Of a stretch of DNA of 64,000 bases, positions 11,389 to 59,025 are shown piece after piece (within the stretch, counting starts at the first letter, position 1; each line of letters begins with the position of its first letter). The notes below the pieces were generated by a model that worked only from the letters and a program-made list of their open reading frames with translations, had not been told where the DNA came from and did not search any database. Location of the stretch: positions 34,347,060 through 34,411,059 of the forward strand of contig OY987243.1 of NCBI GenBank assembly GCA_963920765.1, in the 5' to 3' direction. The position numbers were made by a program, and so were the translations under genes. This DNA is from Ulota crispa (taxonomy: Eukaryota > Streptophyta > Bryopsida > Orthotrichales > Orthotrichaceae).

Positions 11389-11392
11389 TTAA

Positions 11393-12009
11393 CCCCTAAA
11401 TGCCCAAGCGACCAGATTTGGGTTGCAACAAAACTTTGAAGATGAATAAAATCTTATCAAGTCACTATTTTCAGTATTTTTTTTAATATAAGTTGGTTTT
11501 GAAGTTTATTTTCAATTAAAATTAATAATTTTTTTACTCAAGAATTTGTACAAGGGTATCCAATGCAATCTTGAGTTTTTTAGTGTCGGAAGATCTTGAA
11601 AATGAGCCTCAAATACATTAGAGCTTGGAGGAAATATCACATTAAAAATCCATTTAAAAAATATATTGGAGATTTTGAAAGTTGTAAATTGATTAAAGTT
11701 AAACATGTAATGATCTTAAACCTCATATTTTTTTGGTAACCAACTTTTTAGATTTGACATGTGAAATGAGGATTAGAAAACTATAAGTCACTTTTGCAAT
11801 TTTAACACCCTCATGTTCAAACATTATAATCTTTCAAACTATAAGAGATATTGTTGTGTTTTCTTTTCCCATGTAATCTCTAACATGTTCAGGCTAAAAT
11901 TGTACAATTACAACTGAAAAAAACTTGACAAGATTTTTGAAAAGGTTGATTGATTGTTCTATTTTATGGAAATTCCAAGAAGCTCAGATAGGGCTTGGGC
12001 ATTTAGGGG
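11393..12009. mobile_element. TTAA-flanked MITE, 0.64-kb subfamily, copy 1
   Basis: The 617-bp element is bounded by TTAA at 11389-11392 and 12010-12013. Ends are CCCCTAAATGCCCAAG and its inverse. The interior matches, in the opposite orientation, the elements at 41367-42012 and 58293-58936, for example around 'ttgtacaagggtatccaatg'. TTAA targets and CCY-type ends are piggyBac features. There is no transposase frame. Confidence 0.8.
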
Positions 12010-12065
12010 TTAACGCAAGCCCTAGTTCCTTTATTTTCTTTTATAATCATATGCATAAGTGGTAG

Positions 12066-12374
12066 GAGCACCCATAAACATCAAACTAAGGGTTTTGAAC
12101 ATGACGACTATTAATAAATAACTAGCAAATTATAAGATCCTATTGGGAACAAAAAAATAAGTTTGCAATTTTGGATAAATTATTTGGATACTCTGAGAAT
12201 AAGTTGTGAATTTTTAAAGAGCAAATTGCCATTGCACACATAACCAACACTAAGGTCTCATGTTCACATGTTGTACATCCTTTTAATTACATCTATTCAC
12301 TTCCATAGATTTTCCAAAATTTCACAAGTGACTGTTATGGGGACACTGATGCTTATGAGTGTTCCTATCTTACT
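12066..12374. mobile_element. MITE of the TAAGGTAGGA family
   Basis: The left end contains GGTAGGAGCACCCATAAAC. The right end, inverted, reads TAAGATAGGAACACTCATAAG. The interior matches 27106-27430 over most of its length ('gagaataagttgtgaatttt', 'atgttcacatgttgt'). It interrupts DNA that is contiguous in the related segment at 57940-58073. Confidence 0.65.
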
Positions 12375-12566
12375 ATAATAGGGCCTGGCTAAGATGAAGG
12401 TATCCGGACAAAATATTCATTTCATCTTAAGAGAGCATTCATTGTAGCCAAATCCCTCTTGCAACTCCCCAATACTGTACCTGTTGAGTTACTTCCATGT
12501 CAAGAACAATGCTCTTATCCAAGCATTTTTCTTACACACGTTCATCTTAGCCAGGTACTACTGTAG
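12373..12566. mobile_element. Small MITE with CTACAGTAG-type ends
   Basis: The left end CTATAATAGGGCCTGGCTAAGATGAA is mirrored by TTCATCTTAGCCAGGTACTACTGTAG at the right end (about 26 bp, a few mismatches). It abuts the preceding MITE. A related end occurs near 47095-47120 ('catttt agccaagcactattgta'). Confidence 0.6.
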
Positions 12567-12678
12567 TTTTTGCGGCATCATGCGATTTTTTACTTGAAAC
12601 GTTGGTTGGTGTTTCTTTCACATCGACACCTCGCATGTATGCACATTATGAAAACTTACTGAGAACAACTAACAATTG

Positions 12679-12915
12679 CAGAAAAAGAAAGAAAACAGTG
12701 GATGAGAAAAGAAAACCATGGATGAGAAAAGGGGAAAGTGGATGGTAAAAGAAAAAAGTGGATGAGAGAAGAAAAACATGGATGAGGAAAGAAAAAAGTG
12801 GATGGGAAAAGAAAGAAAGTACTGTAGATGAGAGAAAAAGGGGGGATGAAAACAGAAAAAGTGGATTAGACAAGAAAAAGGAGATGAGAACAGAAAAAAG
12901 TAGATGATAAAAGAT
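12679..12915. repeat. Purine-rich minisatellite, about 20-bp unit
   Basis: About eleven variants of a unit like GTGGATGAGAAAAGAAAAAA run head to tail on the + strand. Almost all + strand bases are purines except the T of GGATG. The array ends some 400 bp before the DNL gene start codon. Confidence 0.8.
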
Positions 12916-13089
12916 AAAGAAAGTGAGGAACAAACTACTCGACTCTTCGAAACTTTCTCATCCCCGCGCTTGAATGTCGGATTTCCACGCCCAGGTCATG
13001 TGGCACCAGATTTGCGAGCCAGACGCAGCTCTGCAAGGATTTCGATTTCGGCCCTGAAAGAGAAGATCTCATGAAGCGGCGTCTGCGGT

Positions 13090-13250
13090 CTTTAGGGTTT
13101 TTGGGTTTAGGGTAAACCCTAATCCCTAGATTGGCGCTTGGGCGGAGCTGCTCTGAGTCCACCGCATTCTGAAACTGTGCGGAATCTCGGCAACCAGACT
13201 GAGGCTTTTTCAAGAAGCGACTCTTGTCATTTGTAGTCCCAAAACCCTAA
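13090..13250 (+). promoter_or_regulatory. Telo-box cluster upstream of the DNL gene
   Basis: The stretch contains GGGTTTTTGGGTTTAGGGTAAACCCTAATCCCTAG, listed here in pieces as TTTAGGGTTT, TTTAGGGTAAACCCTAA and later AAACCCTAA near 13240. Such AAACCCTAA motifs are typical of plant genes for ribosome and organelle functions. The role is inferred. Confidence 0.5.
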
Positions 13251-13299
13251 TTGCGGTGTTTTGCACCTGCGATTCGCAGCAAACACAAACTTTGGCAGC

Positions 13300-17243: not shown

Positions 17244-17655
17244 GGGCATTAATATGTGAACCACACCCTTTGAACTACTGTACCACACCCTTGGGGTAAA
17301 TTTTAGATTTCTACTATCAAGAATTTGAGTTTGAGAATTTCGAATTCAAATTTGGACTTAGAGACCATGATATTGTCTAGGACCATAAAAAAAGTTGCAA
17401 TTCAACAACACCCAATGAAAAAACTTATCTTTTTTTACAAACAAAAGTAAAATTAATAATTTTCTCCCTAACTAAACTTTTTCATTGGGTGTTGTTGAAT
17501 TGCAACTTTTTTTATAGTTCTAGACAATACCATGGTCTCTAAGTCCAAATTTGAATTCAAAATTTTCAAATTCAGCTTTTTGATGGTAGAAATCTAAAAT
17601 TTATCCCATGGTGTGGTATAGTAATTGGAAGGGTGTGGTACACATATCAATTCTC
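17244..17655. mobile_element. Foldback MITE, GGGAATTGATATG family, copy F1
   Basis: Two long inverted arms (about 190 bp each) enclose a short spacer. The arm cores read AGTTGCAATTCAACAACACC and its inverse. The ends are GGGCATTAATATG and CATATCAATTCTC. Flanks ATTTTTTAA (17235-17243) and ATCTTTTAA (17656-17664) form a 9-bp duplication with one mismatch, which points to a Mutator-like MITE. Confidence 0.8.
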
Positions 17656-19986: not shown

Positions 19987-20130
<144 letters not shown>

Positions 20131-20381: not shown

Positions 20382-20561
<180 letters not shown>

Positions 20562-20635: not shown

Positions 20636-20917
<282 letters not shown>

Positions 20918-21199: not shown

Positions 21200-21529
21200 C
21201 TATTTCGCCATGAAATTTCCATTATCAGATAGAAATTACACCGCCGCAATCAATACCAAGTTCACCTTGAACTGCACAAGAGAAATATCACAGGTTCTGA
21301 GGAAAAACAATCGACCCATACTTAACCCAGATCTAGAGCTTCTCAAATAAGAAGAGAAAAGAGCTCATAGCACACGTTCACAACTAGAACAGTACCCAAA
21401 TGCCAGTAATTGTGGCTTCTCGCGAGGCTTCAAGAAGAGGATCGAACTGTGGGTTAAAAGCCACGGTGAATGCATAGTCAACTATGCGACCTGTATTTTT
21501 GCAAGAAAAAAGAATAACTTTATTATCAA

Positions 21530-22680
21530 CCACTAAACGCCCAAGGCCATATTTTCTCAAAAAAACACTCAAAATTGCCGTTTTCAGATATGAGATCCGA
21601 AAAAATTTATATTTTCACTTTTTTTACAAATCTAACCGTAGGATGTTACCTAAGACTTATGCAAGAAGCCAACGTGAATACGTCATAATGTCTAACCAAA
21701 TGGATTGAGAGATATGATCATTTGAAGTTAGAATAATAGTTTAAATGACCTTTGCCCAAAATTTTGAGACCCTCTGATCACATGTTATGAACATTATTTG
21801 TAACATAAATGTTGTAGAGAGTTGTCCAACATGCTCTAAATCATGGTAGGTAGATATCTCAAATTTTCAAGACCAACAAAGACAAGGAACACACCGTTAG
21901 TAGCCCTGCATTGCAAACAACACCATATTAGGTAAATTGGGAAAAAGAGTACTTTTTGGGACTTTTGAAGGTTTTAGGTGATCACCTAAAATCAGGCTCA
22001 ACTTTTTTTGGGTACACGTGTTGTCATCTGAGAGGAGGAATTTGCGAGGGAAAAAATCTTAGTGGCTCAAACTAAATTTGATACCTTTGAATTTGGTTTA
22101 AGGTGACTTCTCTGGACCCAGGTGACATACAAATTGGAACCCCTCATTTTCCCAATTTACCTAATATGGTGTTAAACATGTGCTTGAAATTCACACTCCA
22201 CTAGGATTTTTGCAAACCAATTTTCAAAGGCTAATTTTGAGTTACAAAAATCCAAATAATACGTTGCAAAACTTCACATTTAATGAAAACCCTAAAAAAA
22301 AGTTTGAAAAAAAAACCAAATCTCTTGTTTCTATTGCATTTCAAATGCTATTGTATTTATCATTAATAAAATGCATTTATCTTATACACTATTGCTTTGG
22401 ATGTGCTCCAATGAAGAGTCATACCTTCATTGGTTGCCCAAAAAATGATCTGCCCAAACTGCCCCTAGAACAAAAAAAAAACTTAAAACACCAATCATTT
22501 TTGAGTTGTAACTCTGATTCCAATAAAAACTGAACTTGCGTGTATCCCTTACAAAACTCCAAATCAGAATAAAAACTCCAAATCAGAATAAAAACTCCAA
22601 GAAAATGATCAGAAATCCCAGTAGAATAAGCTTGCCCAAAATCCGTTTTGTCCCGCATAGGCATAACGGGCTTTCAAGGG
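21530..22680. mobile_element. TTAA-flanked element in intron 7 of the MAP2 pseudogene
   Basis: The left junction reads TCAA then CCACTAAACGCCCAAGG; the right end is CTTTCAAGGG followed by TTAA (22681-22684). The intact MAP2 intron lacks the 1.15-kb insert and reads GGTTAGTGATTAAAC at the corresponding place (about 62360-62376). The left TTAA appears mutated to TCAA. A foldback element is nested inside. No transposase frame is seen. Confidence 0.65.
21918..22173. mobile_element. Foldback MITE with ACACCATATTAGGTAAATTGGG ends
   Basis: The left end ACACCATATTAGGTAAATTG is mirrored at the right end by CAATTTACCTAATATGGTGT. The ends are perfect or near-perfect for about 25 bp. A related shorter copy is at 30761-30902. 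Confidence 0.65.
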
Positions 22681-22742
22681 TTAACCAGAAGTAAGTACGA
22701 CAATGCAAATTTAACGGAATAAGTCTCAGATTGATTCAAACA

Positions 22743-24365: not shown

Positions 24366-24489
24366 TAAGCACAAAGGAGGTCCCAGGCACTATATGGGTT
24401 TTTGATTACTGTTGCCGTACAATTTTATGGAGAAACGCGTTATTCATTTTAAGATAAAGCAAACAATTTTTCTAAAAAAAACCCTTTAA

Positions 24490-27104
24490 TCCCTAAAGGA
24501 CCAAGCCATTTTTATGTGAAAAACATAGAAAACTGCCACTTTTGGGGAAGCAAGTACAATGGTAAGGAAAAAAGTTTTTTACAAGAATCCAACCTTAAGA
24601 TCTTGGGCAATGCACTATACCAAATTTTCATGGGTTCTCTGCGTTCAAGGCCCTATTAGAGGGGGGCTATGTAGGTAAATTTTGTGTATTTTCATAGGGC
24701 TATGTTTAGGTAAATTTCTAAATTCTTCAGATTAAATGAACCCTATGCTTCATTATAAAAAATAAATTGTGATATTTTAGGGTATCCTATTTTCATTATA
24801 AAGACATGTACCAGACAAACAACAAAACTTTCATAGCTCTAGAGTAACAAGATAAGGAAACCCTACCCAACCTCTTGTAATGACAAGTAATACCCTAAAC
24901 CATTGTGAAACTAAATTTCATCCATAATTTTGAACCACAAATTTTGCTTGTCATCCTCCCCTTGTACCGCCACGTGTAGTATAGAGAGAGCGCCACCCAT
25001 TGTAAATCCTAGTACAGCTGGCATATAGGGCGCATTGGAAACTTGCTTTGGATTTTACAGATTCATTTAACCCCTAAATCCCTAAGTGTTCCCTCGGGGG
25101 ACAAATGAGATTTTGGGCAGGTACCTACAGCCTCAATTTTTGTCTTGATTTTTTGAAACTTTTTTTGAAGATAGGAAAGCACATTAGCTTTTGCCTTTGG
25201 GGAATATAATATTTATTCCAATCCATGTCCAAAAGCAAAAGTTATACCTAGATAAGCAAAAATATATGGAGATCGGGTAGCAAAAAAAAATTACAAAAAT
25301 TTGAATTTAAAAAAAACAAAAAAAAATCATCTCATAGGCTATAGTTTTGTATACATTTGAAGCTTTGATTCATTCCATTTGGACTAGTTGTGAAAAAGTT
25401 ATGGACAATCTTGTTTTTTGGGCAATTCAAGCATCTTCTTGAAAAAATAACTTATAAACTTCATTTCTGAATGCAAGTTGTTTTCAAAAAAAATTGTTAA
25501 AGATGGTGAAGTTTGATTTTTAGAACAATCTCATCATTGGGATTATTGCGTTTCAATTCCATTGCAAGGTTATTAACAATTTAAATTTTTGTTCAATCTC
25601 AGACCTTCATCCACCTAATGATTTCTTTAAGAATAAAAATTAGGTATTTTTGGTTTTCATTTTTTTTGAGATATTTAACTCAATTTCCCACCACAAAAAA
25701 ATAAACCTCAAAGCTCTGAAGTGCAAAAATTTTATGTCAAAAAAGCTCACAGTCAAATAATCTAGTCATGCAAGGTGCAAAGAAGCTTGTTCTTTATAAT
25801 TCAATTGCAAATATCTTGCAATCTGTGTAATCAAAGTTTATGGATTTATGTGTGCACATTCTTATACAAGTCTAGTACAAAATCCTATGGTTAGATATAC
25901 AAAAAGACCAATTTTCAAACTTTTTACTCTTCGCAATAGAAATCACAGTTTTGGGTGTCTTTTGACAAAATAAAGGCCCCAGGGATTTAGGGGTTAATAC
26001 TAAAACCTATATCAGACCCTTCTTTATTAATATTAAACCTATACTAGACTGTACCCTATTATATTCCTAGATTTTTGTCTCTAATAAAATAACCCTATTG
26101 TAGACCTAAAAAATATATAAAACTCATCAATATAAAATACCCTTTGTTGTTTATAAAGACCATATACACATTACAATGACCCTTATTTATTTTAAAGGCA
26201 TGTCAAAAATTTAGGACCGAAGTTATTAAAACAACCCTTCATTTGATTGCACGTGTTCTTAAATAAAATGGGGAGTGCACTCCCCAAGCATAAGATCTTA
26301 TAGTAGACTACAAGAGGTACACGTGATAAAAAAAATCAGCTCAATCTACAAAAAAATGAGTGAGAAATTTTACATGTGAATTGCGGGAACATGTTTTTCT
26401 TGCTGCTGTCCAAAAAATTCAGAAGGCTTTGACCACTCTTAAAGCAACAAAATTACTCTACACAAAGTTGTGGTTTTTTTTTCCCATGTAGGAGACCAAG
26501 TTAGGTATGTGTGAGAGAATTTTCAAATCATTTGAAACTATACAACATATGGGAAAAAATAGTAAGTAAAAAGAAGTAGAGAATGAGTCAAAACACTAAA
26601 TTGTTAAGAATTTAATTGTTAAAATGAAAAATGCAAATCCTAGTGGTTATAATGTTGTAATAAACAATCTACATCCTTTAGTAAATTTTTTTCCAAAATA
26701 ATGAAAATTGAGTAAAGTAAAGGGCTTCAAAGTTTATTTTAGAGTAGAGAATCCATAACTGCCCGCAAACAAAAATTCCTCATAACTTTCATCTCATGTA
26801 TCAAAATTGAATGATTCAAAGCTCCCCACATCTATATAAGTCTAAAGAGCCTATTTCAGATTTTTATTTGAAGAAAATAAAAAATTTAAAGAAATTTTTG
26901 GTTGCCTAAGGAGCAGCATTTTCTAGATTTTCATGCATAGCTTCTTCAATAAATGTTGGAATGAAGAAAAAATTACATTCCCACGTAGATCTTTGAATTC
27001 CTCACCTTCAATAAATGTTTCAGATAATCACGCAAGGTAGTTTAGCCATAGGTATATGCCCAAAATCCCGTTTGTCCCCCGAAGGGACAATGGTCCTTTA
27101 GGGG
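24490..27104. mobile_element. TTAA-flanked element, about 1.7 kb plus a nested copy
   Basis: TTAA at 24486-24489 precedes TCCCTAAAGGACCAAG, and CCTTTAGGGG precedes TTAA at 27105-27108. Its right half matches, inverted, the element at 28524-29476 ('caataaatgttggaatgaag'). A 923-bp relative is nested at 25071-25993. Coding capacity is absent. Confidence 0.6.
25071..25993. mobile_element. Nested TTAA-flanked element, 923 bp
   Basis: Ends CCCCTAAATCCCTAAG and CCCAGGGATTTAGGGG sit between TTAA copies at 25067-25070 and 25994-25997. The interior is AT-rich without a frame. Confidence 0.78.
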
Positions 27105-27105
27105 T

Positions 27106-27430
27106 TAAGGTAGGAACAACCATAAGCATTAGTTTAAGGTTTTGAACATGATGACTATTAATAGACATCTAACAAATTATAAGATCTTGTTAGCAACAAA
27201 AATAATAATAATTAGTTTGCACTCTTGAATGTATTATTTGGATATTGTGAGAATAAGTTGTGAATTTTTAAAGACCAAAGTAACTGTCATTGTACGCATA
27301 ACCAACATTAAGATTTCATGTTCACATGTTGTGCATCCTTGTAATTACATCTATTTACTTCTATAGATGTTCCAAGATTTTAAAGGTGACGGTTCTGGGG
27401 ACACTAACGCTTGCGGGTGGTCCTACCTTA
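27106..27430. mobile_element. MITE of the TAAGGTAGGA family inside CACTA-1
   Basis: Left end TAAGGTAGGAACAACCATAA; right end, inverted, TAAGGTAGGACCACCCGCAA. The interior aligns with 12066-12374. It begins at the TTAA that ends the preceding element. Confidence 0.7.
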
Positions 27431-28111: not shown

Positions 28112-28523
28112 TTTTTTAGGATAAAATTTATTGCAAAATGATGTATCAATTCCACAATCATGGGATTGACTTGACATCTACCAACAAATCTACACTAAAC
28201 AAAAATTTATAGCTATGATAAACCATAAATATTTAGGAAATGGTTAGATTTTTTGGGTATATCCATTTTTGATTATATAGAGTTTGTGTTGTACTCTGAT
28301 AATATTAGAAGTTCAAACATAGATTATATCATTTTAGGATCACACATAAGAAAATAGTCACATGTATGTACAATGGGGTTGAATAAGTTTTTGGTCATCC
28401 TATATAGGGTGGAAACATGGGTCCAAATGATAAAAAATTGACAAAAGTTTGTCCAAGTTGACAACAATACCTTTTTGCACCAATTTCTTTGTTGTTGCTA
28501 TGATGGGTTTGCAATATTATTAA

Positions 28524-29476
28524 CCCCTAACAGACCAACTGTTCCCTTGGGGGATAAATGGACTTCGGGCATGTACCTATGATTAAACCAATTTTTACAA
28601 CTTTATGAAACTTTGAGGTTGGTGGGGAATGCAAAGATGTACATGCACATCTAATTTTTTCTTCATTCCAACATTTATTGAAAAAGTTATGCATGAATAT
28701 TTGAAAAACAAGGGAAGGCAGGCAATCCAGGCAGCCCAAAAGACTTCTTTAAAAATTGCATTTTTTTAAAGTAAAAATCTGAAATTGGTTATTTAGATTT
28801 TTATATGTGTGGAAAGCTTTGAATCATTCAATTTTGATTAATGAGTAAGAAGTTTTAGTTTGCGGGCAGGTATGTAACTTCTAAACCTCCATTCCTTTTG
28901 CCCTCATAAAATTTGGTGCTTTAATTTTTTGAGCTTTTTGTTTATTTATTCTTTGACTCTTTTTTTTTCAAGTTGTAATAGACTAAGATTCCTTGGTTTT
29001 CACCATTTGGATCAAAGTAATTCAAATTTCTGAATTTTACGTAAATCCTCCAATTTTGCTTTGTGTATATGCAAATTTCATGGTCTTACAGCATTGCAAG
29101 ATTTTACGAAGTATGTTGCACACCTCCAATTCATTTGAAAATTCTCCCACACTTACCTAACTTGCTCTTCTACATGGAAACAATAAACCTCAACTTTGTG
29201 TAGAGCAATTTTTTTGATATAAGAGTGATCAAAGGCTTCTAAAATATTTGGGCAATAGGGAAAAAAAAGTTCTTTTTTCATTTTAGATGCCAATATCTCA
29301 CTCCTCTACATCTAGAATGAGTTGATTTTTGTCTCATAAGTACCTCCAATAGTCTAGGGCAAGATCTCATGGTTGGATTTCCAAAAAGAAGAGAAAAAAT
29401 CTTACCTTTCTACTCATTCCCCCAAAAGTGCAATTTTCAATATCTTTCACAAATAAAAGGCTTAGGACTTTAGGGG
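28524..29476. mobile_element. TTAA-flanked element, 953 bp, sharing its right junction
   Basis: TTAA at 28520-28523 precedes CCCCTAACAGACCAACTG; the right end CTTTAGGGG is followed by CTAA (29477-29480), a one-base variant of TTAA. The next element starts immediately after. The interior is an inverted relative of 26.2-27.1 kb. Confidence 0.65.
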
Positions 29477-29480
29477 CTAA

Positions 29481-30760
29481 CCCCTAAAGTACCAAGTGTT
29501 TGTTCAATGGACACTTGAGAACTTAGGTAGGGTCATACAAAATTGATTTTTGTTAGATGTTCTCAAAATTGTTACACAAGGTGTAAATATGTACCTTCCA
29601 AGTGGAAATGTAATTTTTTCCCCAATCAAATGCTTGATGGAAAAATTATGATGCCCAATAGATTTTGGGCAACTTGGGCAATTTGAGCATCTTTGGAGAA
29701 TCTTATACTAAAAATCTCATGAACTTTTGAAGTTTGGCATGTATGTAACTAATAGAACATAGTACATAATAGTCCAAAAAAAAAACTTGACCTCTCAAAT
29801 CACATTCTAAGAGGAGTCAAACTTTGTTAACCATGTTTGTGCAATTTCAAGAAGAAAACATTTTCTTCTAACTTCAAAACTTGTTATCTTTCAATCTTTA
29901 TATTCAAAGTTCCTAAATTTTTTTCCACATCTTCTACATGTTGGTCTCTAACTTTTCCCCATTTGGATTTCAAATGAAAAACTTCCTCATTGCACAATAA
30001 ATCATTGAAAGATGACTAGTCTATTGCCAATTCACTTAAGCTCCTTACACTGCAAGGTGATTTAGAAATAAGCTTCACTCTATACTTACTTTTGGAAATT
30101 TTCATGAGTTGACCTAACATCATGTATTTATGAATGGTAAAAAAATTACTCCATGATGGCATGGTTGTTACATTGGACCGCTCGTTCGCCTACCCGCCTG
30201 TACGCCCGAAGTGTCCAATTGAGGTCATGGTTTGTCCGGTGAAGTCAACTCATAGTTGACTTTAAAAATGGTCCAAAATAACAAAAATACTTACTTTGTA
30301 CATGCTAGTGACACTCATTGTTGCCACCATGAAGTCAAAATGTGGATTCAAAGCAATGTCACGTAATAAAAATGAAAATTTATAATTTGATTCTTCCATT
30401 TTTAGGTCAAAAACCCTGAAAATGCCCTAAATTGTCCATTTGGTCCAATTTGTCTGCCCGTGCTATCTGATTTGTCTGCCCGTCCATGTTGTCCGACAGC
30501 CTCAACTCGCCCAAAGTAACAATCCTGCATGATGGCTCAAAGTTTGCTAACTTTGTTTTGCAAGAATGAAAAAAAGTTGTTTTTCTCACTTCAAATGTCA
30601 TAATCTTACAATCCATGTGGTTAAATGGGTTGAAAGGTTATGCACATATTGGTTTATTTGTTTAACACACTTTTGTAGGGTTTGAAGTTCAAAAATGGAG
30701 TTTTTATTTTCAATTTTGGGCAATGTCCTAAACATCGGCAGTTGGTTCTTCATTGTTAAG
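29481..30760. mobile_element. TTAA-type element, right end not found, carrying a nested MITE
   Basis: It starts CCCCTAAAGTACCAAG and aligns, inverted, with the complete element at 55756-56701 (for example 'ttgcacaataaatcatt' and 'cttacactgcaaggtgattt'). Similarity fades near 30620-30700 and no CCCC/TTAA end is visible, so the right end is probably lost. Confidence 0.55.
30161..30527. mobile_element. Mutator-like MITE with 9-bp target duplication CATGATGGC
   Basis: CATGATGGC occurs exactly at 30152-30160 and 30528-30536. Inner ends are ATGGTTGTTACATTGG and, inverted, CAGGATTGTTACTTTGG. The body is notably rich in CCCGCC/GCCCG compared with its surroundings. The homologous element at 55756-56701 lacks it. 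Confidence 0.75.
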
Positions 30761-32847: not shown

Positions 32848-32850
32848 TTA

Positions 32851-40355: not shown

Positions 40356-41366
40356 GGCAAGGCTGCTCTTGAGGCACGTCCAAGAGTGCGTTGCCTCGCT
40401 TCTGAGGCGGTTTATATTCTGCAAGTAAGATCTACTTGAAATCAAAACCACAACATAAAATTCCAAAAAAAGCGGGGATTGCGTACACTGGTCTCTTTAA
40501 ATCACTACAATTCCAACATCTGGCAATCCTCCGAGGTAAGAACACAAGCGGCTTCAGAAGTGTTAACAAAACAGAGAGCAAAGACAAGTAGCCCCCGACA
40601 ATCTCCGGTTTCCGAAGTTTAAGAACTCTCCAAAATGCACCACTCAAGAGGAGTTCATAAACATTCAAGTGAGGCGAGAGAATCGCGCGGCTCCGTCAAA
40701 GTGACAGTAGAAACGCAAGAACCAGGGGAGGGGGGAGAGAGACGCCACTGACCTTTCAACCGAGCACGCTAATGTCCTCCGAGTTTCGGTAAAACTCTGA
40801 GGTTCGGCAGGTCTAAGCACGTCCTCGTCCTTGCTGCGAGCACCAACGGAAACACAACTCCATGAACTCCACTCGCGGTCACCGCCGCAACGGCTAATTC
40901 CGAAGCAGAGTGCACCCGGGCTTACAAGACAGACGAGGATTTGATACAAAGTTACACGGAAACGATCGGTCTCAGCAATCCAGCGATCAACGCAAGCTAT
41001 GGAGCTCCTGGAAATGGCAACGCGCGCAGTCGCCTGAGTCTGCCTCGCTGAAGCTCTTCCAACGGTCACTTCGTTTGTAGATACCTGGGACTATATACCC
41101 GGGACTCTATACCCGGGACGCGTCGTTTCCCACGCATATACCCTTTCAGTCTACACTACCGGATCTCGGGTACAGGGGATGACTCTCGTGCGATGGCACT
41201 CCGGACATCATTGCTGTGCCTTCGAATCGGTGTAAGCGTGGTAACTATGCCAAGACCTGTATCATACCGGGGGTGTGGCATGGGTATCATCAATGGGTTT
41301 CTTCCCAAGATTCGAGATCTTAGAGTCGCCTTGAGGAGTTAGAGATTTTCGAAAACCTTGTATTAA
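40356..41366 (-). promoter_or_regulatory. Leader and promoter of the TP-rich gene
   Basis: The region to about 41.1 kb is GC-richer than its surroundings and probably holds non-coding leader exons. At 41085-41130 a short repeat 'atacccgggac' occurs twice around TATA-like ACTATATACC and CTCTATACC. Open frames here show no family resemblance. Confidence 0.35.
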
Positions 41367-42012
41367 CCCCTCACCGCCCATGGTGTTTTTGAGTATCTTA
41401 GAATTTGCTTGAAAGTGAACAAAATGTCGGAATTTTGATCAATCTTATCAATTTTCTTTGAAGTGCAATCGTATAAAGTCAAAGTAGACATGTTATAGAT
41501 CTCATAGGAAAAGAAATCACAAGAATTTTATTTATAGATTGAAAGATTATAACATTTAATCATGAGGGTGTTAAAACTGCAAAAGTGATTGGAAGTCTTT
41601 CAATCCTCTTTGTGCACCTCAAACCTAAAATTGAGGGTACCAAAAAAATATGAGTATGTAAAGTATAACATGCATAACCCCAATCAATTTACAGCTTCTC
41701 AAAATCTATTCTACAATTTTTTAAACTGAATTTTTAATGTGATTTTTTCTCCAAGTTCTAGTGTACTTGAGGCTCATTTCCAAGAGCCTTCAACACTAGA
41801 AAGTGAAGATTTGCAATGGACACCCTTGCACAAAACCTTGAATAGACAAATCATGTTAATTTGTTTTCAAAATCAAACTCTTGATACTAAAACTAGACTC
41901 CAATAAAAATTTAAATAAAATAATGATCACTAAAAAAAATCTTGAAAATAGGTGCCACATCTATGAATAAAATTCAAAGAAGCCCGGTTTGAGCTCCTTG
42001 GGTGGTGAGGGG
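41367..42012. mobile_element. TTAA-flanked MITE, 0.64-kb subfamily, copy 2
   Basis: TTAA at 41363-41366 and 42013-42016 flank ends CCCCTCACCGCCCA and TGGGTGGTGAGGGG. The interior matches copies 1 and 3 ('gtgtacttgaggctcatttc', 'gcaatggacacccttgcac'). The terminal bases differ from copies 1 and 3 in a matched way at both ends (CTCACC versus CTAAAT), as if the two ends co-evolve. Confidence 0.82.
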
Positions 42013-42013
42013 T

Positions 42014-42423
42014 TAAGGTAAAGTGGAAGCATCCATACCCAATAATAAGAGATTCTGCAACAATCTCCAGAGAGTTTAAGGCCACAAATAATTTTCCCAT
42101 GTAGGAAGATAAGAAATATTGGGATAGCAAAATTTTCATAATTTTATTTGCAAAACTAAAATTACTATGAATTTTGGGAGTTAAAAAGTGTTCCACACCC
42201 ATTGCCAATGTCTAGATGTATGCAATTCCAATACAAGCCAAACCAATTTCAGCTCATTACTTCCTACCTCACTTTGGGACATGTGGCATGACTTAAGTGG
42301 CTCCAACCTTGCAAAATACTCAGAAAATACACAATACAAAGCACCTATCCTAGCTCATGGTGGAAATAGCACCCCCTACTAGTTGGGAATGGGGTATTAT
42401 TAGCTAGGGGTGCTTCCACCTTA
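42014..42423. mobile_element. MITE with TAAGGTGGAAGCACC ends
   Basis: Left end TAAGGTAAAGTGGAAGCATC and right end, inverted, TAAGGTGGAAGCACCCCTAG. It starts at the TTAA that closes the preceding element, exactly as at 27106. It belongs to or near the TAAGGTAGGA family. Confidence 0.5.
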
Positions 42424-43505
42424 GAAGACTCATGAATGGAGCATCTAAGGGTTGAAACTAAATTTTGGAGAGATGAAACTTTTGGAAATATTTTGCAATA
42501 AATTTTGTTTGAAAGACAACATGAATTGGCATCTGATCCAAGTTGTTTCATATTTTTTGGAGCTTTGTGGAATTAGTTATGACATTTTGAAGTGGAAAGA
42601 CCGTAGGTCTCTAAAACGGTGCACCTCCTCAAATGTACATGGTTTGTACATTGTTGAAGGGCTATGAAAAACAATGTGTACAATACCCCTCATTATGTTT
42701 ACGTTTGGCCCATTTTGCCATTCAAAGAACTTAACATAAAATAGAGTATGATTTGCATTTTAGGTGTTGCGTCATGGTTTTGTAACTCTTATGCACTCCT
42801 AATCAAGCACATCACATTTTAGTTCCAATATATAAAATCCCCATTTTTTGTAAATTGTTTTGTATTAAAGTCATGGTTTTACATGAAAATTGATTGAAGA
42901 AAAATGGTGATGAATATTTGAGATTTGATTGCATGGATATGTAAGGAAACATCCGTATGCACATTTTTCATGTTTAACTAGTTTTTCACCTAGTAAACAT
43001 ATTTTCATGCTCAAAGGTACAAATGTAATCATAATGTATGAGTCAAATAGCAAAATCTGATTATCATAAAGAAATATCAATTTTACAAATTTGGGTTTTA
43101 CCACACCCCAAGTTGATTTCATATTCATTTCTTTGTAGATCATATTTTTGTTATTTAATGATATTTGTTTTAACATGAAAAAGGTGCATATGGATGTTTC
43201 CTTACATACCCATGCAACCAAATCTCAAAAATTCATCATCAATTTTCTTCAATCAATTTTCATGTAAAACCATGACTTTAATACAAAACAATTTACCCAA
43301 AATGGGGTTTTTATTTTTTGGAACTGAAATTTGATGTGCTTGATTAGGAGTGCATAAGAATTACAAAACCATGATGCACGGCAAAATATGCTAACCATAC
43401 TCTATTTTATGCAAAGTTCTTTGAATAGTAAAATGGGCCAAACGTAAATATATTGAGGGGTACTGTACATATAAAGTACATTTGAGCAAGTGCACCATTT
43501 TAGAG
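42424..43505. mobile_element. Foldback element with arms of about 330 bp
   Basis: 42610-42960 and 43185-43500 are inverted copies; for example 'aagtcatggttttacatgaa' is mirrored by 'ttcatgtaaaaccatgactt'. The left part (42430-42640) matches the PILS-intron MITE. The loop (42960-43185) is unique here. The outer ends are not fully defined. Confidence 0.65.
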
Positions 43506-43537
43506 CCTACATCAAATTAGAGCCTTTTACCTAGTAA

Positions 43538-44681
43538 GGGAATTGATATGTGTACACCTCGGGGGGTGGGGATAAACTTTAGATATTTCCCATTGGCAAG
43601 CTATATTTGGAAAGTTTGAATTTATATTTGGATTTAAAGACCTTGATTTAGCCTAGAACCACAAAGGAGGTTACAATTGAACAATGCCTAGTGGCAAAGT
43701 TTAGCCTTTTTTACACAGAGCATGAAAGTACTGATTTGCCCCCTAGCTAAGCTTTCCCACTAGGCATTGTTCAATTGTAACCTCCTTTGTGGTTCTAGGC
43801 TAAATCCTAGTCTTTAACCCTTGAACACCCTAGAGGACCAAAAGTGTCCTCGCATGATTTCAAAGGCTTGTTTGAGGCTCTGGATTTACATTTTTGATCT
43901 TGTTATAAACTACAATTATGGAGGCATTCAAGTTGTCCATGTCAATGAAATAATGGCAAGGCAAGCCAAATGTTGTACAAGTGTCTCAAGAGATTTGATT
44001 GGGTGAAACACCATACAGGGCATGGTGGCAAGCAAATTTTTACAAGCTGCGACTAGTCAATATTCCTTGCAAGCTTCCTTATGTGTGCTTTGTGGTAGCA
44101 AGAAATTTGTTGGCAAGGGTTCAAGCATGTTCTAGATCCTTATTGTGGCAACCCTCACAGATTGTCCCGGTCATCTTTGTCCGTGCAATAGTAGTATGAA
44201 GCCCTAAAACTTGACATAAAAAGAAGTGCAATCTTCAATAACTTATAAATGTGTGCATCACATCTAATCTTGCTACTCACAAAAATTGAGATGAATCAAA
44301 TGCTTATAGAATTTAGTAAAATTCATCAAATAGCAATTGCCGTCCAAAAAGTGAGATTTTGCCATCACATGTTGTTTGGTCAGATGTTATAATCTCCCAT
44401 CTCTTGCGGTCAATTGTTCCCAAAATGTACAAACCATTTTCTAAGTGGGTGTTCCACTATTTTCAATGGTCACTTTTTGTGGATCACCCAATTGACTAAG
44501 ATACAAAGCATCAAAGTTGGAGGTCTCCAAAAACCTTGATTTTGGTGAAAATGGCCTGGGCGTTCAGGAATTAAATCCAAATCTGAATTCAAACTTTCCA
44601 AATTCAGCTTGCCAATGGGAAATATCTAAAGTTTACCCCATGTGCACATATCACACCCTAGGTGTGCAAATATCAATTCCC
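43538..44681. mobile_element. Foldback MITE F3, split by a TTAA element
   Basis: Ends GGGAATTGATATG and CATATCAATTCCC-type (here AATATCAATTCCC). Arm cores AGGTTACAATTGAACAATGC and its inverse. The right arm is interrupted at its internal TTTAAA by the element at 43818-44570. The 9-bp flanks are only weakly alike, so the duplication has decayed. Confidence 0.75.
43818..44570. mobile_element. TTAA-flanked element nested in foldback F3
   Basis: TTAA at 43814-43817 and 44571-44574. Ends CCCTTGAACACCCTAGAGG and GCCTGGGCGTTCAGGA. Joining the flanks restores the foldback arm sequence AGTCTTTAAATCCAAAT, which matches the other arm, so target and boundaries are certain. The interior has short open frames (43821-44006) without family resemblance. 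Confidence 0.85.
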
Positions 44682-44761
44682 ATATTATAATTGCATAATA
44701 CTAACCAACTTAATTTGCCGATTTAAATGGTTTGCACCAAGTTTTGCTTTTTGGCGTTTAA

Positions 44762-44973
44762 CCCCTGAATGGCCCAAAAGCCCTTTGTGGCCATATATAC
44801 AGATGTATTTGAGCTACTCTAAGGGCTTTCCAAAAAAAATTATGCACCCACCATCATACAATCCTTTGATATGTATAGTTGTAACACTTAATTTCTAGCT
44901 AATTTAAACTTTTAAATATTGGTTGTGACTGTATTTGGTACCTTAGCTCCATAGCCCAAGGGCCCTTCAGGGG
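44762..44973. mobile_element. TTAA-flanked MITE, 0.21-kb subfamily, copy 1
   Basis: 212 bp between TTAA at 44758-44761 and 44974-44977. Ends CCCCTGAATGGCCCAAAAGC and CAAGGGCCCTTCAGGGG. About 85-90% like 58078-58288 by eye ('ccctttg.ggccatat', 'cacttaatttctagc'). Confidence 0.88.
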
Positions 44974-45129
44974 TTAAGGTGTAGTTTTATATACAAAAAA
45001 TTGCATACAAGGTTACTATACGGTACTTCAACAAGTTTGATGTTCTTTTTGAGTAAATAGATAAAGTCACTCCCAAGAGTAGGGATCGTAAGGTACGTGC
45101 ATTTTGGGAAATTATTATACAAGCTTTAA

Positions 45130-45355
45130 CCCTTAAAAGACCATAGGGCATAGTATATATGCTGACGTATAATTGTCATTTGCTACCAATAAGAAATTTT
45201 AATTTGGGATCTCAAGTAGCTCACTAGAACCACATTGATCTATTCTTCAACTTCTTTGTTGGTTTCAAATGTAGTAGAAGTGTGAATCCATTCCAAATAC
45301 AAGAAAAATACTCCTTATTGTACTGGTTGCAAAGGGCCTTTCAATTGTTTAAGGA
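45130..45355. mobile_element. Short TTAA-flanked element
   Basis: TTAA at 45126-45129 and 45356-45359. Ends CCCTTAAAAGACCATAGGG and CAAAGGGCCTTTCAATTG. 226 bp, AT-rich, no frame. Confidence 0.6.
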
Positions 45356-45479
45356 TTAATCTTTAGGACTCAACTCATCTCTTGACTTGAAATACTTTTA
45401 AAATACTTTATAAACAAATAGGAGGGATAATTTGCCATAAAAAAAAAAAATTGGTACAGAAGAAAGCACTTAGTATTGT

Positions 45480-52702: not shown

Positions 52703-53291
52703 GGGAATTGATATGTGTACCATACCCTTTGAACTATTATACCACACCCCGGGTAAATTTTAGATTTCTACCATCAAAAAGTTGAATTTGAGAATTTGGA
52801 ATTCAGATTTGGACTTAGAGACCATAATTTAGTCTAGAACCATATAAAAAGTTGCAATTCAACTACACCCAATGAAAAAGTTTAGCTAGGGAGAAAAATG
52901 TTACTTTTACTTTTGTTTGTTAAAAAAGATAAGCTTTTTCATTGGGTGTTGTTGAATTGCAACTTTTTTTTATGGTTCTAAACGTAAATCATGGCCTCTA
53001 AGTCCAAATTTGAATTCCAAATTCTCAAATTCAACTTTTTGATGGTAGAAATAAAAAATTTACCCCGGGGGTGTGGTATAGTATACTAGAAGAAAACTAC
53101 GTTGGAACCCACTAAAATATGTAAGGTAGTTTATGTTAAGTTCCACGTTTCTAACGCAAAAATTTGCTGAACAGTGCAAAATTTTGCATTGGAAATATGG
53201 AACTCAATATAAACTATCTTACATTTTTTTGTGGGTTCCAACGCAATTTTCTATTAGTAGTTCAAAGGGTGTGGTACACGTATCAATGCCC
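52703..53291. mobile_element. Foldback MITE F2 with a perfect 9-bp target duplication
   Basis: TAATGGGAT is present at 52694-52702 and 53292-53300. Ends are GGGAATTGATATGTG and CGTATCAATGCCC. Arms match copy F1 closely ('aaagttgcaattcaac', 'ttcattgggtgttgttg'). The right arm carries a nested 173-bp palindromic element. The 9-bp duplication assigns the family to the Mutator-like group. Confidence 0.88.
53084..53256. mobile_element. Palindromic MITE nested in F2
   Basis: TACTAGAAGAAAACTACGTT faces AACGCAATTTTCTATTA. A further inner pair, AACTTAACATAAACTACC-type, extends the inverted repeat almost to the centre near 'aatttgctgaacagtgcaaa'. Flanking GTA on both sides suggests a 3-bp (or TA) duplication. 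Copy F1 has an uninterrupted arm here, confirming insertion. Confidence 0.75.
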
Positions 53292-54253
53292 TAATGGGAT
53301 ATAGGGAACAAAAAATTTGTAGACGACAAAGAAGTTGCGCATGTGGCATGATCTTTTTATTGTTGTTTTTTCATTTCAATAGGGGGCTTCAAACATAAAA
53401 TCAGGTGTATGAGTTTCTCACCTCATAGGATCCCAACTCACTAGTAAACTATATTTGTTCACTTGCATGCCCAAAATATGAGACATCTGTGAGTTTGCAA
53501 TCACCTCAAGTAGGGTTTTGTGCACAAGTTGGGGGTCCGAGACACCTGTGAGATGAGCCGCACAAAGGTGAATTTTTGGAGTTCACTCTTTACATGAATC
53601 ACATTGGAAGTGAATTCTAGAGGTGAGTCACCTTGCTCTTCATTAAAGAATTCACCGAGGTGAATATGTGAGTCACTTGAAAATTTTGATTTTTGATGCC
53701 CCCTAATACAAGCATTTCAATGGGGTTCTAGTGTCTACAATAGGTAGGTCTAGCGGGGTTTGCCTTCAATAATTCTTGACTTATTCATACACTCTTAGAA
53801 AATTCCAAAAATAAATTTGCTTACAACTGTGCCCATTTCTTAACAAGCACATGCTAGTATATTTTGAAAATATCCTCAAGATCATCACATCTAAAGTAAG
53901 TGTTGGTTTTAGGTTCTCCTATCCTTCAACTTGTTTTTGAAGTAATGTACCCATCCCTAAAAACTGTTGTTGTTTTGTATACGGACTCTAGTGTTGTATA
54001 TGGATGGGGCATTTGGGTAGCACATGAATCTCATTAGAGTTGTAAATTTTACACCAAGTTATAGACATACTATTGATCAATTAGGACTTTTTGGGGATTT
54101 TTTGGCATTTATCGTAAAGACATGTACTAAATGGTGTTCATACAAATACAAACAACACTTTTAGTAGGAAACATCCTTTAGGGGTTAAACTTCCTCAGGG
54201 TGGATTTTGTTTATGCAAAACCTCCTCTTTGCAATCTAGAGTCAATAAATTTA
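53292..54253. other. AT-rich spacer
   Basis: No coding exon or complete element recognised. Similar short phrases such as 'gtgagtcacttg' and 'gtgagatgagcc' near 53500-53690 hint at degenerate local repeats. Confidence 0.35.
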
Positions 54254-54686: not shown

Positions 54687-54834
54687 ATAAATTTAACTGT
54701 ATTTGTAAACAATCGTTAACATTCTTGCTTGGCACATAGAAGAAATATGTTCCTCTTATTGCTGTAGCCTAAGGCTGATAAGAATTGTCCACTAATTCTA
54801 TCTATCTGTATATATAAAATAATACAATCTACCA

Positions 54835-55335
54835 ATCTGGCAATCCTTTTATTGCGTGGGTAAAATAATTCTTTATAGCAATCTTTTTCTCATGTGGGTA
54901 AAAACTTGCATGCTTAAAAACCTGCGTAGGTATATATAAAAAATATGATTGGCAATCATTTTATCACATGGGTAAAACTTGCATGGATGAAAAACTGCGT
55001 GGATAGGAATCTATGTGGGTAAAAATTTGTGTGGGTAAACTTTTGTATGGATAAAAACTTACATGGGAAAAAAAATGCATGGATAAAAACCAAAAGATAT
55101 AAAAAGTTGCGTGGATAATCATTGTGTGGGTAGAAAAAATGCTTGGGTAAAAAATAAGTAATTATTTTTTTGCGTGAGAAAACAATAGCAATCCTTTTAT
55201 TACATGGGTAAAATATTTTGTGGGTATAAAACAAAAATTGCTTTGTTGTAAGGGAATATTTTGTAAATCAAATCAAATATTTTATTAGCATGGGTAAAGT
55301 TCAAAATTGGATTACATGGATAAAAAGTTAAAAAA
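54835..55335. repeat. Degenerate CATGGGTAAAA array
   Basis: Variants of GCATGGGTAAAAACTTGCGTGG-like units of about 18-22 bp recur roughly twenty times with drift, including 'atcacatgggtaaaact' and 'gtgtgggtaaac'. The frame at 54956-55234 is a by-product. Confidence 0.65.
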
Positions 55336-55755
55336 GTTATTGCAGGGAAATGTTTTACATAATTGAGCTTGAATTTATTTTGCTTCTTGTTGGATCAATG
55401 AGTGCCTATTCTAGTTGAAACATAAAAAATTGGACAAGCTTTGGGTGAAAAACTAGAGAAACCATTGCAAAAACCAATATATGAGGGTTATGTGGTCTTA
55501 CAATAAATTTATATTGATGAAACAAGCTTAGCATTGTTGAGCAATGGGAAATGAGGTGACATTAAATGCATACAAAGAAAATAGTATTTGAACGATAAAT
55601 AAAGGTCCCTTTTTGTTGGGTGCAATTGCATGGTTCTAAAGTCTTGTTTCCATCAAACCGGTTGCAAGTCTCTTTTTGAGTTCCTCAGTTGGATTCATTT
55701 TGAATTCCTAATTTCTTCTCCTTTGCATATCTACTATTGAATTTCTATCTCTTAA

Positions 55756-56701
55756 CCCCTAAAGCCCGAAGGGTGTTGCAGATAAAAATAAGACCAAATC
55801 TGTCATCTTTGGATGATTTATTTAAGATTCAAAGTAATTTTTCTTTTGAGTTTCAACCGTATAGAAGTGTAATATACAAGTAAGGCAATGTGTGAAATAA
55901 AGTCCAGTCCGTTTAACTGCATAGATTGTAAGATTATAATGTTTGAAGTGAGAAAAACAACTTTTTTTCATTCTTGTAAAACAAGGTTGGCAAACTTTGA
56001 GCCCTCTTAAAGTAATTTTTTTGCTCTGCACAAAAACCTTTTTTTGACCATTCATTAGTGTATGTTGTTAGGTTCACTCATGAAAAATTTAGGAGAAAAT
56101 ATAGAATCTAGCTTATTCTAAATCACCCTACAATGCAAGGAGGTTCAATGAATTGGCAATACACTAGTCATTTTTTCATGATTTTTTGTGCAATGAGGAA
56201 GTCTTTTGTTTGAATCCAAATTGTGAAAAGTTAGAGGCAAACATTTGAAATATGTGAAAAAAGCTTCAAGAACTTTGAATTTATGGATTGCAAGATAATA
56301 GGGCCTAAAATTAGAAGAAACTACTCTTTCTTGAAACTGCCTGAACATAGTTAACAAAGTTTGACTCCTCTTAGGATGTGATTTGCAAGCTCAATTTTTT
56401 TTTTGACAATTGTATACCATATTTTATGAGTTACATATGTACACGCCACGTTTCAAAAGTTGATGAGAGTTTTAACATAAGATTTTGAAAAGATGCTCAA
56501 ATTGCCCAAGGTGCCCAAAAGAATTTGGGCAACATAACTTTTTACTTGAGCATCCGCTTGGAGTTTTTTTTTTTTTTCACACAAAGGCATTCATTTTGTG
56601 CACCTTGTCTCCAAATTTCAGAAACATTTGCCAAATTTGACTTCATAGGAACCTACTCAAACTTTCAATTGACTGTTGAACAAACTTTTGTGGTTTAGGG
56701 G
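55756..56701. mobile_element. TTAA-flanked element, 946 bp, complete
   Basis: TTAA at 55752-55755 and 56702-56705. Ends CCCCTAAAGCCCGAAGGG and TTTTGTGGTTTAGGGG. Inverted relative of 29481-30620 in CACTA-1, but without the nested Mutator-like MITE found there. Confidence 0.78.
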
Positions 56702-56920
56702 TTAATATCGATAATAATGAGAGTTTTTATTTATTTATTTTCAAAAAGGTATTTCCTTCTAGATTCAAAACAAAAGGTCCATTTTTTATGGATAAGTCAT
56801 TACTGACTTAGGGGTTTATAATATTGTGCCACCAATTTCAAATACATTTAAAGCTGGTTTTTTTATGTTTTTTAACTAAGTTAACACATGGTACATTTCA
56901 ATTTTAGTACATTGTAGGTT

Positions 56921-57315
56921 GAGAGTAGATTCAACACTCAGTTGTCAAATTAACTATTTTTTGGGAAAATCTAATTTGGCATTAAGTTTAGTAATTAGTT
57001 GAGGATTAGGCATATTCAAAAAAAATTGTTATTATATGGCGATCAACTAGTGTTTTTATAGTAGATTCAAACCTTTTTTCAAAGAACTTTTGATTTTCCA
57101 AAATTAAGCCTTGGTACAAATTTTGCAACAGATTGAGCCCTCATAGAATTAGCCTTGACCTTTTAGAACTAGTTAGGCTTAATGACTTCTACAACATTAG
57201 GCAATTTAATTTTTTGTTTTATTTAGTATTGGGCTTTATTGAAGATTAATTTACAAAATTATTCCGCAAAATTTTGGGGAATTATTTTATGCCAAATTCG
57301 TTCTCAACCTATAGT
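56921..57315. mobile_element. Copy of the GTAGGTTGAGAG element
   Basis: Left end ATTGTAGGTTGAGAG; right end TTCTCAACCTATAG. AGTAC flanks both sides and may be the target duplication. The interior aligns with 19310-19560 ('gtaattagttgaggatta'). Confidence 0.6.
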
Positions 57316-58073
57316 ACTTGACATTTATGTCATCATACTTATAGATTTTTTAAAGTATGTTTTATTGTAAAAGTGGTATGTATTCATGAGCGTGTCATCA
57401 TCTTGAACAAAATTTTCTTGTTATATTCTAAAATCATACAACAATGCATCCTTGTCAAAGTAAACTTTATAGTAAAACTAGTAGCAAGGGATGAATCTTC
57501 TCTATATATTAGAAAGGAAAGGTAAAAAAACAAAGAAGGTTTAGGGTGCTTGTAGTTGGTGAATCTCTCCATTGCTCTCAATCAATGGGTGCAATGACTC
57601 AATGACATAAGAAACAATCTTTCAAAGTCCAAAACTCACTAAGAACTGAAGTTCAGGCAAACGTGGTGAAACTCAAATGTACTGTACACTTGGCATACGT
57701 GACTCATCTCAAGGCAATCGAGAGCCTCACAAATCAAGTGCTTTCTCTGCGGATACCAGAACACCGTGCTTACACACAGTCTGTGTAGCAGGCTGCCTGA
57801 TGTGCTATCCGCATTAAGTTACACAACCAAAGAATTTGAAAAAGCTCAGGTCGATGAAACGCGCAGCCAAATCACAGGCGGCAGGCGAATCCACCTACCT
57901 CGACTACATCATCAATCACTGCGATTTGAAATGGACACACACAAGCGAGGTGTCAATGTGAAAGAAATACCAAGCTTTCAACAAAAAAAATCGCATGATG
58001 CCGCAAACACTAGTATGCATAAGTTATGGGACAACTATGAAAGAAAACAAAACTTCTGGAACTAGGGCTTCCG
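57316..58073. other. Spacer including an inverted-duplicate flank
   Basis: 57940-58073 aligns, inverted, with 12015-12065 plus 12567-12640 ('atcgcatgatgccgcaaa', 'gcgaggtgtcaatgtgaaag', 'ggaactagggctt'). The open frame at 57766-58065 has no family resemblance. Confidence 0.5.
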
Positions 58074-58077
58074 TTAA

Positions 58078-58288
58078 CCCCTGAACGTCACAAAAGCCCT
58101 TTGCGGCCATATGTACAGACGTATTTGAGTTGCTATGAGGGCTTTCCAAATTTTTTATGCATCTAGCATCATTCAATCCTTTAATATGTAAAGTTGTAAC
58201 ACTTAATTTCTAGCCAATTTAAACTCCTGAATATTGGTTGTGATTGTATTTGGTATTGTACTCCAGAGCCCAAGGGCTCCTTCAGGGG
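58078..58288. mobile_element. TTAA-flanked MITE, 0.21-kb subfamily, copy 2
   Basis: TTAA at 58074-58077 and 58289-58292. Ends CCCCTGAACGTCACAAAAGC and GGGCTCCTTCAGGGG. It abuts the next element, sharing one TTAA. The related locus near 12010 has no such element, so it inserted there (or was lost) after the duplication. Confidence 0.85.
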
Positions 58289-58292
58289 TTAA

Positions 58293-58936
58293 CCCTTAAA
58301 TGCCCAAGGCCTTTTTTGAGCTTTTAGGAATTTGCTCTAAACTGAACAAAAAGTCAACTATTTGACAAGTTATATCAATTCTTTTAAAATTGTAACCGTA
58401 CAAATTCAAACTAGATATATAAGATATCACATAGAAAAAGAAAACACACCAATTGCACTTATGGATTGAAAGATTATTTTGATTGATCAAGAGGGTGTTA
58501 AAATTGCAAAAATGACTTCAAGTCTTTCTATCCTCTTTTCACAAGTCAAATCTAAAATGTTGGTCACAAAAAAAATGAGGTTAACGGACATAACATACAT
58601 AACTCTAATCCATTTATAACTTTTCAAAATCTCTTTTATAATATTCAAAAACAAATTTCTAGTGTGAATTTTTCTCCAAGATTTAGTGTATTTGAGGCTC
58701 ATTTTCATGGGCTCTCAACACTAAAAAAGTCAAGATTGCAATTGACACCCTTGCACAAAATCTTGAATAGAAAATGCACAATCAATGATTTTTGAAATCA
58801 AATTTTTGATGGTAAAACTAAACTTCAAAAAGATCAACTCCAAAATACTAAATATTAAAAATAGTAGCTTAGCTAGATTTTCTTAAACTTCAAAATACTG
58901 TTGACACCAAAATGTGGTGCCTTGGGCATTTAGGGG
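58293..58936. mobile_element. TTAA-flanked MITE, 0.64-kb subfamily, copy 3
   Basis: Between TTAA at 58289-58292 and 58937-58940. Ends CCCTTAAATGCCCAAGG and CCTTGGGCATTTAGGGG. It occupies the same site as copy 1 in the duplicated segment. Confidence 0.85.
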
Positions 58937-59025
58937 TTAATGGAGGCAATATTAGGGTTTTGCGGATGGTATTCCACAATTCTCATCCATCGTTCAACCA
59001 AAGAAATGAACGGGGAACCATCTAA
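58937..59025. repeat. Duplicated flank shared with 11308-11392
   Basis: Inverted match over about 85 bp: 'tggaggcaatattagggttt', 'ttctcatccatcgttcaac' and 'gaacggggaaccatctaa'. The match stops at 59025/11308. Confidence 0.85.

Follow-up and report, generated by a model that had tools for sequence, protein, structure and literature searches.

PiggyBac is a family of jumping genes best known from insects, and TTAA-targeted non-autonomous relatives of it occur in animals. Studies of miniature inverted-repeat transposable elements (MITEs) in lepidopteran insects (PMC9033116) and in the ciliate Blepharisma (PMC9942856) reportedly mention piggyBac as well, in animal and ciliate hosts, whereas the elements described here reside in a moss. 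We analyzed a 64-kb stretch of this moss genome (C2:34347060-34411059, termed the window; assembly of 274,817,297 bases in 157 contigs), whose short insertions almost certainly are non-autonomous members, MITEs as well as longer relatives, of several lineages of the piggyBac superfamily. The moss system resembles the type element of the superfamily, piggyBac of Trichoplusia ni (the PDB 6x67/6x68 match), in its TTAA target, its short inverted ends starting with CCC, the PF13843 DDD transposase domain and a Cys/His-rich carboxy-terminal tail. It differs by its moss host, its very large MITE population and the architecture of the transposase-bearing elements, which span 5.0–6.3 kb with long upstream regions and inverted ends of ~20 bp, whereas the type element is given as ~2.5 kb (2,472 bp) in an excerpt of PMC10140906. 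With the plant Tourist and Stowaway MITEs the moss elements share their shortness, high copy number and lack of autonomy; these plant families differ in their targets, TAA/TTA or TA, and in the transposases that they use.

PiggyBac in plants is already known, at a low level in print, and the moss elements would constitute a large-scale case. Its occurrence in plants is stated in passages of PMC10813416 and PMC10140906, one survey excerpt counts PiggyBac among the superfamilies present in all of its groups (PMC4438587), and a review passage lists it among the angiosperm MITE superfamilies (PMC10004981). Repeat tables hold 1,230 'PiggyBac' entries covering 122,417 bp (0.00%) for the fern Ceratopteris (PMC6890710) and a single entry of 75 bp (0.00%) for the grass Stipa (PMC8319324), which carry the same superfamily label and, in the excerpted parts of these papers, come without boundaries or transposases. 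The statement in a first-pass annotation of the window that there is little evidence for such families in land plants therefore needs a qualifier, as the fern table, the multi-group survey and the angiosperm review all list PiggyBac. A survey of 207 plant genomes, as excerpted, sorts MITEs into five superfamilies plus Micron with no piggyBac class (PMC12550479), and the T. ni piggyBac tool is described in the relevant passage as used in rice and untested in P. patens (PMC5505980). Among the matches listed from the open-licence literature (without bioRxiv preprints and with few subscription papers), no paper reports piggyBac in a moss genome; of two moss papers that contain the word, one is PMC5505980, and the other, PMC10619864, reads 'piggybacking' in one of its two occurrences, the one excerpted.

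The host was identified from a LEAFY exon (C4:16278938-16279258), which is identical at 103/105 positions to PDB 4bhk (Floricaula/Leafy homolog 1), which we take to be the Physcomitrium protein. The exon carries the Asp of 4bhk where 2vy1 ('Protein LEAFY') has His, presumably a mark of moss LEAFY. This identifies the host as a moss and therefore as a land plant, as the first-pass annotation had assumed.

Element ends were located with a position matrix (cut-off score at least 16) trained on the same fetched DNA to which it was applied. The fetched genome stretches are labelled L001–L048, where L001–L008 were picked by a TTAA pattern and L029–L048 are transposase loci. The matrix yielded 25 ends in the window and 85 in a 254-kb sample consisting of the window and L029–L048 (254,120 bases), whereas three Markov shuffles of this sample gave 0, 2 and 0 such ends and its reversal gave 1. 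Genome-wide, TTAACCCCTAAA was found in 30,972 copies (15,477 + 15,495) versus 77 (41 + 36) for the reversed pattern, and the 16-mer CCCCTAAATGCCCAAG in 3,244 copies versus 0 for its reversed control. The first 100 listed places of CCCCTAAATGCCCAAG form 22 inward-facing neighbour pairs within 1.5 kb, 17 of them 629–656 bp long, with 2 outward and 0 same-way pairs. Likewise, two exact ends spaced 190–220 bases apart delimit 69 elements genome-wide versus 0 in the control.

Three window elements exhibited numerous full-length relatives. For the 625-bp element at 11389-12013, 39 other matches were 84–89% identical, 33 of which span positions 1–625 (best 40 of 4,058 candidates). The 954-bp element at 55752-56705 gave 42 other matches, 30 of them full length at 81–88% (best 40 of 1,823 candidates), and the 219-bp element at 58074-58292 gave 41, with 39 spanning 1–219 (best 40 of 2,053 candidates). 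The 0.22-, 0.62- and 0.95-kb families are thus short, transposase-free, high in copy number and uniform in their boundaries, the properties by which MITEs are recognized. Fetched elements at separate loci also align from TTAA to TTAA (L003/L004, 87.9%; L034/L044, 87.5%). In the 254-kb sample, 21 paired elements shorter than 1.6 kb occupy 16,251 bases (~6.4%, 83 per Mb), a count in which a 79-bp pair and a weak pair (L042 311-1496) are contained but the skipped and nested window pairs are not. Extrapolated to the genome from this sample, which is not random and has a 12-mer density of 110 versus 112.7 per Mb genome-wide, the values correspond to ~22,700 element pairs and, from the 85 ends, to ~92,000 ends. 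We estimate that the moss genome contains tens of thousands of short piggyBac-type elements. For the 207 plant genomes, the excerpted MITE group averages over all superfamilies range from 44.3 to 120.2 per Mb and from 0.7 to 2.2% of the genome (PMC12550479).

Exact TTAA directly precedes 2,742 of the 3,244 CCCCTAAATGCCCAAG copies (84.5%); enrichment of TTAA beside other copies of one end is the test that the first-pass annotation had named, and it is clearly present. Both ends of 30 of the 38 paired elements are flanked by exact TTAA, or 22 of 30 if the TTAA-pattern-fetched L001–L008 are set aside. At least 83 ends read TTAACCC[CT]TNA and begin with the CCY/CCC typical of piggyBac, although the pattern itself fixed the CCC; CCACT and TCCCT variants exist beside these starts. 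When the flanks of elements were joined, 7 of 37 found a junction-spanning paralogous match in the fetched DNA, and the cleanest of these paralogous empty sites keep one TTAA-like tetranucleotide. The joined flanks of 43814-44574 align gaplessly across the junction with foldback paralogs at 17339-17610 and 52751-53020 of the window (~79%) and with L004, where the site reads CTAA, bearing out the earlier claim that removal of this element together with one TTAA restores a foldback arm; L046 and others provide further paralogous empty sites for it. The element at L043 8083-8972 sits within a copy of a 0.65-kb MITE, whose counterpart in the window, the element 58289-58940 (match at 58385-58633), reads TTAA at the site, while further copies read TTGA, TTTA, GTAA and others. 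Empty-site paralogs of L029 8502-9154 show TTGA. Less clean is the empty site of 21526-22684, whose joined flanks match 62568-62323 of the window at 88%, with the match ending 42 bases beyond the junction. Judged from these alignments, the duplicated unit is best read as four bases, TTAA.

We searched the genome with the piggyBac transposase profile PF13843, scoring 116 of 528 candidates, and obtained at least 120 matches, the best with an E value of 1.3e-73; the window contains none of those listed. Ten of the 120 listed rows are stop-free (for example C4:3591922, C2:34594948 and C2:36765124), although several of the ten are incomplete or represent the two halves of a single gene, and 110 contain stops. 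Twenty transposase loci of ~9.5 kb were fetched, and in eight of these (L029, L030, L032, L033, L034, L037, L038 and L042) the transposase lies between paired ends of the same kind, 5,026–6,343 bp apart; a ninth pair, in L048 (3,847 bp), was excluded as doubtful. Exact TTAA flanks five of the eight full-length elements on both sides, and the other three have a one-base variant on one side. A piggyBac-type transposase bounded by matching ends, which the first-pass annotation had proposed to look for, is thus present in the genome. Element L029 (C3) can be aligned with L038 (C10) over its whole length, at 90.5% identity in 5,028 columns; the likeness stops at the ends, and the 100-bp flanks are only 30% and 35% identical when compared position by position.

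Three stop-free domains matched PF13843 with E values of 1.4e-53, 7.5e-60 and 6.2e-67, and the PDB sequence matches comprise 6x67 (listed as 'Transposase', E 1.9e-19), which we take to be piggyBac, and the piggyBat entry 9c0f (E 6.1e-16). At D268, D346, D447 and D450, which we take to be the acidic positions in piggyBac numbering, Asp is found in 20, 16, 20 and 19 of 22 readable copies, respectively, 15 of which retain the full DDD triad; 3 of 25 loci had been dropped from this count because the wrong strand had been read. In 11 of the 20 loci, a pattern typical of the Cys/His-rich tail occurs 59–69 codons past the catalytic domain, in one case with a stop inside.

Eight loci also share a protein region upstream of the transposase domain (L034 1822-2160), with counterparts in L041, L029, L037, L038, L040, L030 and L039, at 37–44% identity over 67–256 aligned residues and with stops in some counterparts. 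No Pfam family was found up to E 0.1 for four upstream frames of large elements, including that of L034. Several transposase matches occur as equal or near-equal pairs in opposite orientation (C2:36765124/C2:36779670; C7:18203169/C7:18223004; C10:676128/C10:785346), ~15–110 kb apart, which reflect either artefacts of the assembly or inverted duplications. When viral contigs were scanned with three aligned moss transposases, 28 stretches fitted the pattern, but none was confirmed as a relative.

The short elements are connected to these transposases by their ends. Over its first 52 bp, 11389-12013 matches the left end of the transposase-bearing L042 at 92% identity (E 1.7e-16), and the 0.65-kb elements have about 20 end bases in common with L032 and L042. 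In a tree of 22 transposase domains, 12 rows of which were labelled with an end, L032, L042 and L045 form one supported clade, all with CCCCTAAATGCC ends. The ends of L033, L044 and L048 (C or T, then CCTTTA..GACC) and those of L029, L038, L034 and L037 (CCCYT[CG]A..GCC) group by clade as well. Piggybac transposases of the fetched type probably mobilised the short elements.

A number of observations weigh against a piggyBac origin of the short elements. Among the CCCCTAAATGCCCAAG ends, 502 of 3,244 lack an exact TTAA, 30 of the 37 joined flanks have no spanning match in the fetched DNA, and some empty sites are imperfect, L048 being gapped by the junction and L003 reading CCGA. Credible paired ends were found for only 8 of the 20 fetched transposase loci, with 11 lacking them. 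The ends of L043 (CCCTTTAGTGTCC) and L030 (CTCCTAAGCGCC) misfit those of their clades, and end sequence tracks the transposase tree only partly. The fetched full-length elements have little in common with the short ones past the first 20–52 bp, and for this reason no direct deletion parent was found among them. This confinement of the likeness to the ends, together with the partial agreement of ends and clades, is what one would expect if another superfamily had moved the short elements, with the piggyBac transposases as bystanders; Kolobok, for instance, also targets TTAA. On the evidence of the PF13843 loci, to which the transposase search was directed, we regard this scenario as very unlikely, as the match between L042 and 11389-12013 extends over 52 bp and the end of the 0.65-kb family recurs in L032, L042 and L045.

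An assignment to PIF/Harbinger, in which a 3-bp TTA/TAA duplication would make the TTAA partly element sequence, draws on the occurrence of Tourist-type MITEs with TAA/TTA targets in plants, as given in an excerpt of PMC10004981. If ACCCC ends had duplicated TTA, CCCC should be preceded by TTAA at one end of an element and by TAAA at its opposite end, but of the 48 CCCCTRAA occurrences in the sample 33 follow TTAA, and the eight most frequent tetramers do not include TAAA. The empty site of the L043 element keeps all four bases, TTAA, in its paralog, the transposases inside matching ends belong to PF13843, and a 3-bp duplication was not seen, rendering this assignment extremely improbable. Telomere-like repeats, considered because the ends contain CCCTAAA, were ruled out by the TTAA flanks, the reversed-pattern control and the inward pairing. 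Taken together, the data support the piggyBac-type MITE interpretation of the first-pass annotation as essentially right.

In a piggyBac-type mechanism, a DDD transposase encoded at other places in the genome by the 5–6.3-kb relatives would bind to CCCYTNAANGNCCAAG-like ends, excise the element and integrate it into a TTAA target, so that the new copy would be flanked by TTAA; by analogy, excision would be precise. Since the copies are roughly 75–90% alike and most of the listed transposase matches contain stops, the main burst looks old, which suggests that the activity is mostly past. With deeply split lineages, partly distinct ends, tens of thousands of MITEs (~6% of the genome) and an upstream region lacking a Pfam match, we are inclined to see here a piggyBac radiation that would rank with the largest outside animals. 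If true, piggyBac would have been among the main MITE systems in a land plant, overlooked by five-superfamily plant pipelines, and a transposon system best known as an animal tool would enter land-plant natural history on a large scale, a single genome providing both transposases and natural substrates by the thousand. In other bryophytes, elements of this kind may go unnoticed or be assigned to the wrong class, because the plant MITE survey, as excerpted, has no piggyBac class (PMC12550479). With these ends and transposases, an ancestral versus a horizontally acquired origin of moss piggyBac becomes testable in bryophyte and algal genomes.

Within the window, the first-pass annotation had listed 13 positions with CCC(C)T-type ends, all of which show this kind of end, although the start itself is CCACT (after TCAA) at 21530 and TCCCT at 24490. 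Flanking by TTAA or a one-base variant was likewise found in general, with TCAA at 21526, CTAA before 29481 and TTAG at the end of its left neighbour. Among the proposed size classes, those of 0.22, 0.65 and 0.95 kb represent families with full-length relatives, whereas the 1.7-kb class consists of one nested element with partial relatives, ~79–80% similar to elements of L006 and L045 over 831–841 bases. Automatic pairing used a nearest-neighbour rule on inward-facing ends and paired 7 of the 13 positions; three further pairs from the same end list were skipped by the rule because neighbours share a tetranucleotide (Table 1).

Table 1 Elements and lone ends of the piggyBac type in the 64-kb window
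Position	Feature	Strand	Ends and flanks	Pairing
11389-12013	0.62-kb piggyBac-type MITE		TTAA each side; inverted ends 28 nt, 89% complementary	Rule
21526-22684	1.16-kb diverged element		TCAA left, TTAA right	Rule
24486-27108	1.7-kb element split by 25067-25997; 1,696 bp without insert		TTAATCCCTAAAGGACC / TTAACCCCTAAAGGACC	
25067-25997	0.93-kb MITE nested inside 24486-27108		17-nt perfect inverted ends including TTAA	Rule
28520-29480	0.96-kb MITE		TTAA left, TTAG right	End list
29477-29506	Lone left end abutting 28520-29480	+	After CTAA	
41363-42016	0.65-kb MITE		CCCCTCACCGCCC / CCCCTCACCACCC	Rule
43814-44574	0.76-kb element within foldback arm		Right end diverged, TTAATTCCTGAA	Rule
44758-44977	0.22-kb MITE		CCCCTGAA	Rule
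45126-45359	0.23-kb element		Decayed right end TTAATCCTTAAAC, matrix score 6.1	
54155-54188	Lone right end, absent from first-pass list	-	TTAACCCCTAAAGGATGTTTCC	
55752-56705	0.95-kb MITE		TTAA each side	Rule
58074-58292	0.22-kb MITE		Right TTAA common to next element	End list
58289-58940	0.65-kb MITE		TTAA 58289-58292 common to 58074-58292; 22-nt inverted ends, 95%	End list

The 0.65-kb MITE at 41363-42016 shows 74–77% similarity over 518–579 bases to the MITEs 11389-12013, L007 and L029_8502-9154, and its end type resembles that of the transposase element L034. The element at 44758-44977 is similar over its full length (77.6–79.3%) to L005_1501-1732 and L041_393-624. No partner was found within about 2 kb for the lone left end at 29477, and none was found for the right end at 54155-54188, which is similar to the end of a 0.24-kb element at C1:32159655. 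Two-element chains with matches overlapping by four bases occur at 58074-58940 of the window and at C3:13393961-13394410 and C3:817957-818416, as if a single TTAA were shared and one element had inserted in the flank of the other, the letters having been read in the window only.

The foldback that carries the 43814 element belongs to a palindromic family with members at 17292-17610, 52751-53066 and 43532-44687 of the window as well as at L004 225-634 and L046 475-841, and a similar foldback is found inside the transposase-bearing elements L032 (2275-2693) and L042 (5961-6271). Beside the foldback with the 43814 element lies a large inverted repeat (42674-43472) with 304-nt arms at 89%. Two Mem_trans (PF03547) carrier stretches, presumably of the auxin-efflux type, are located on the minus strand at 7046-7786 and 10106-10573, the distance to the 11389 MITE being ~0.8 kb.

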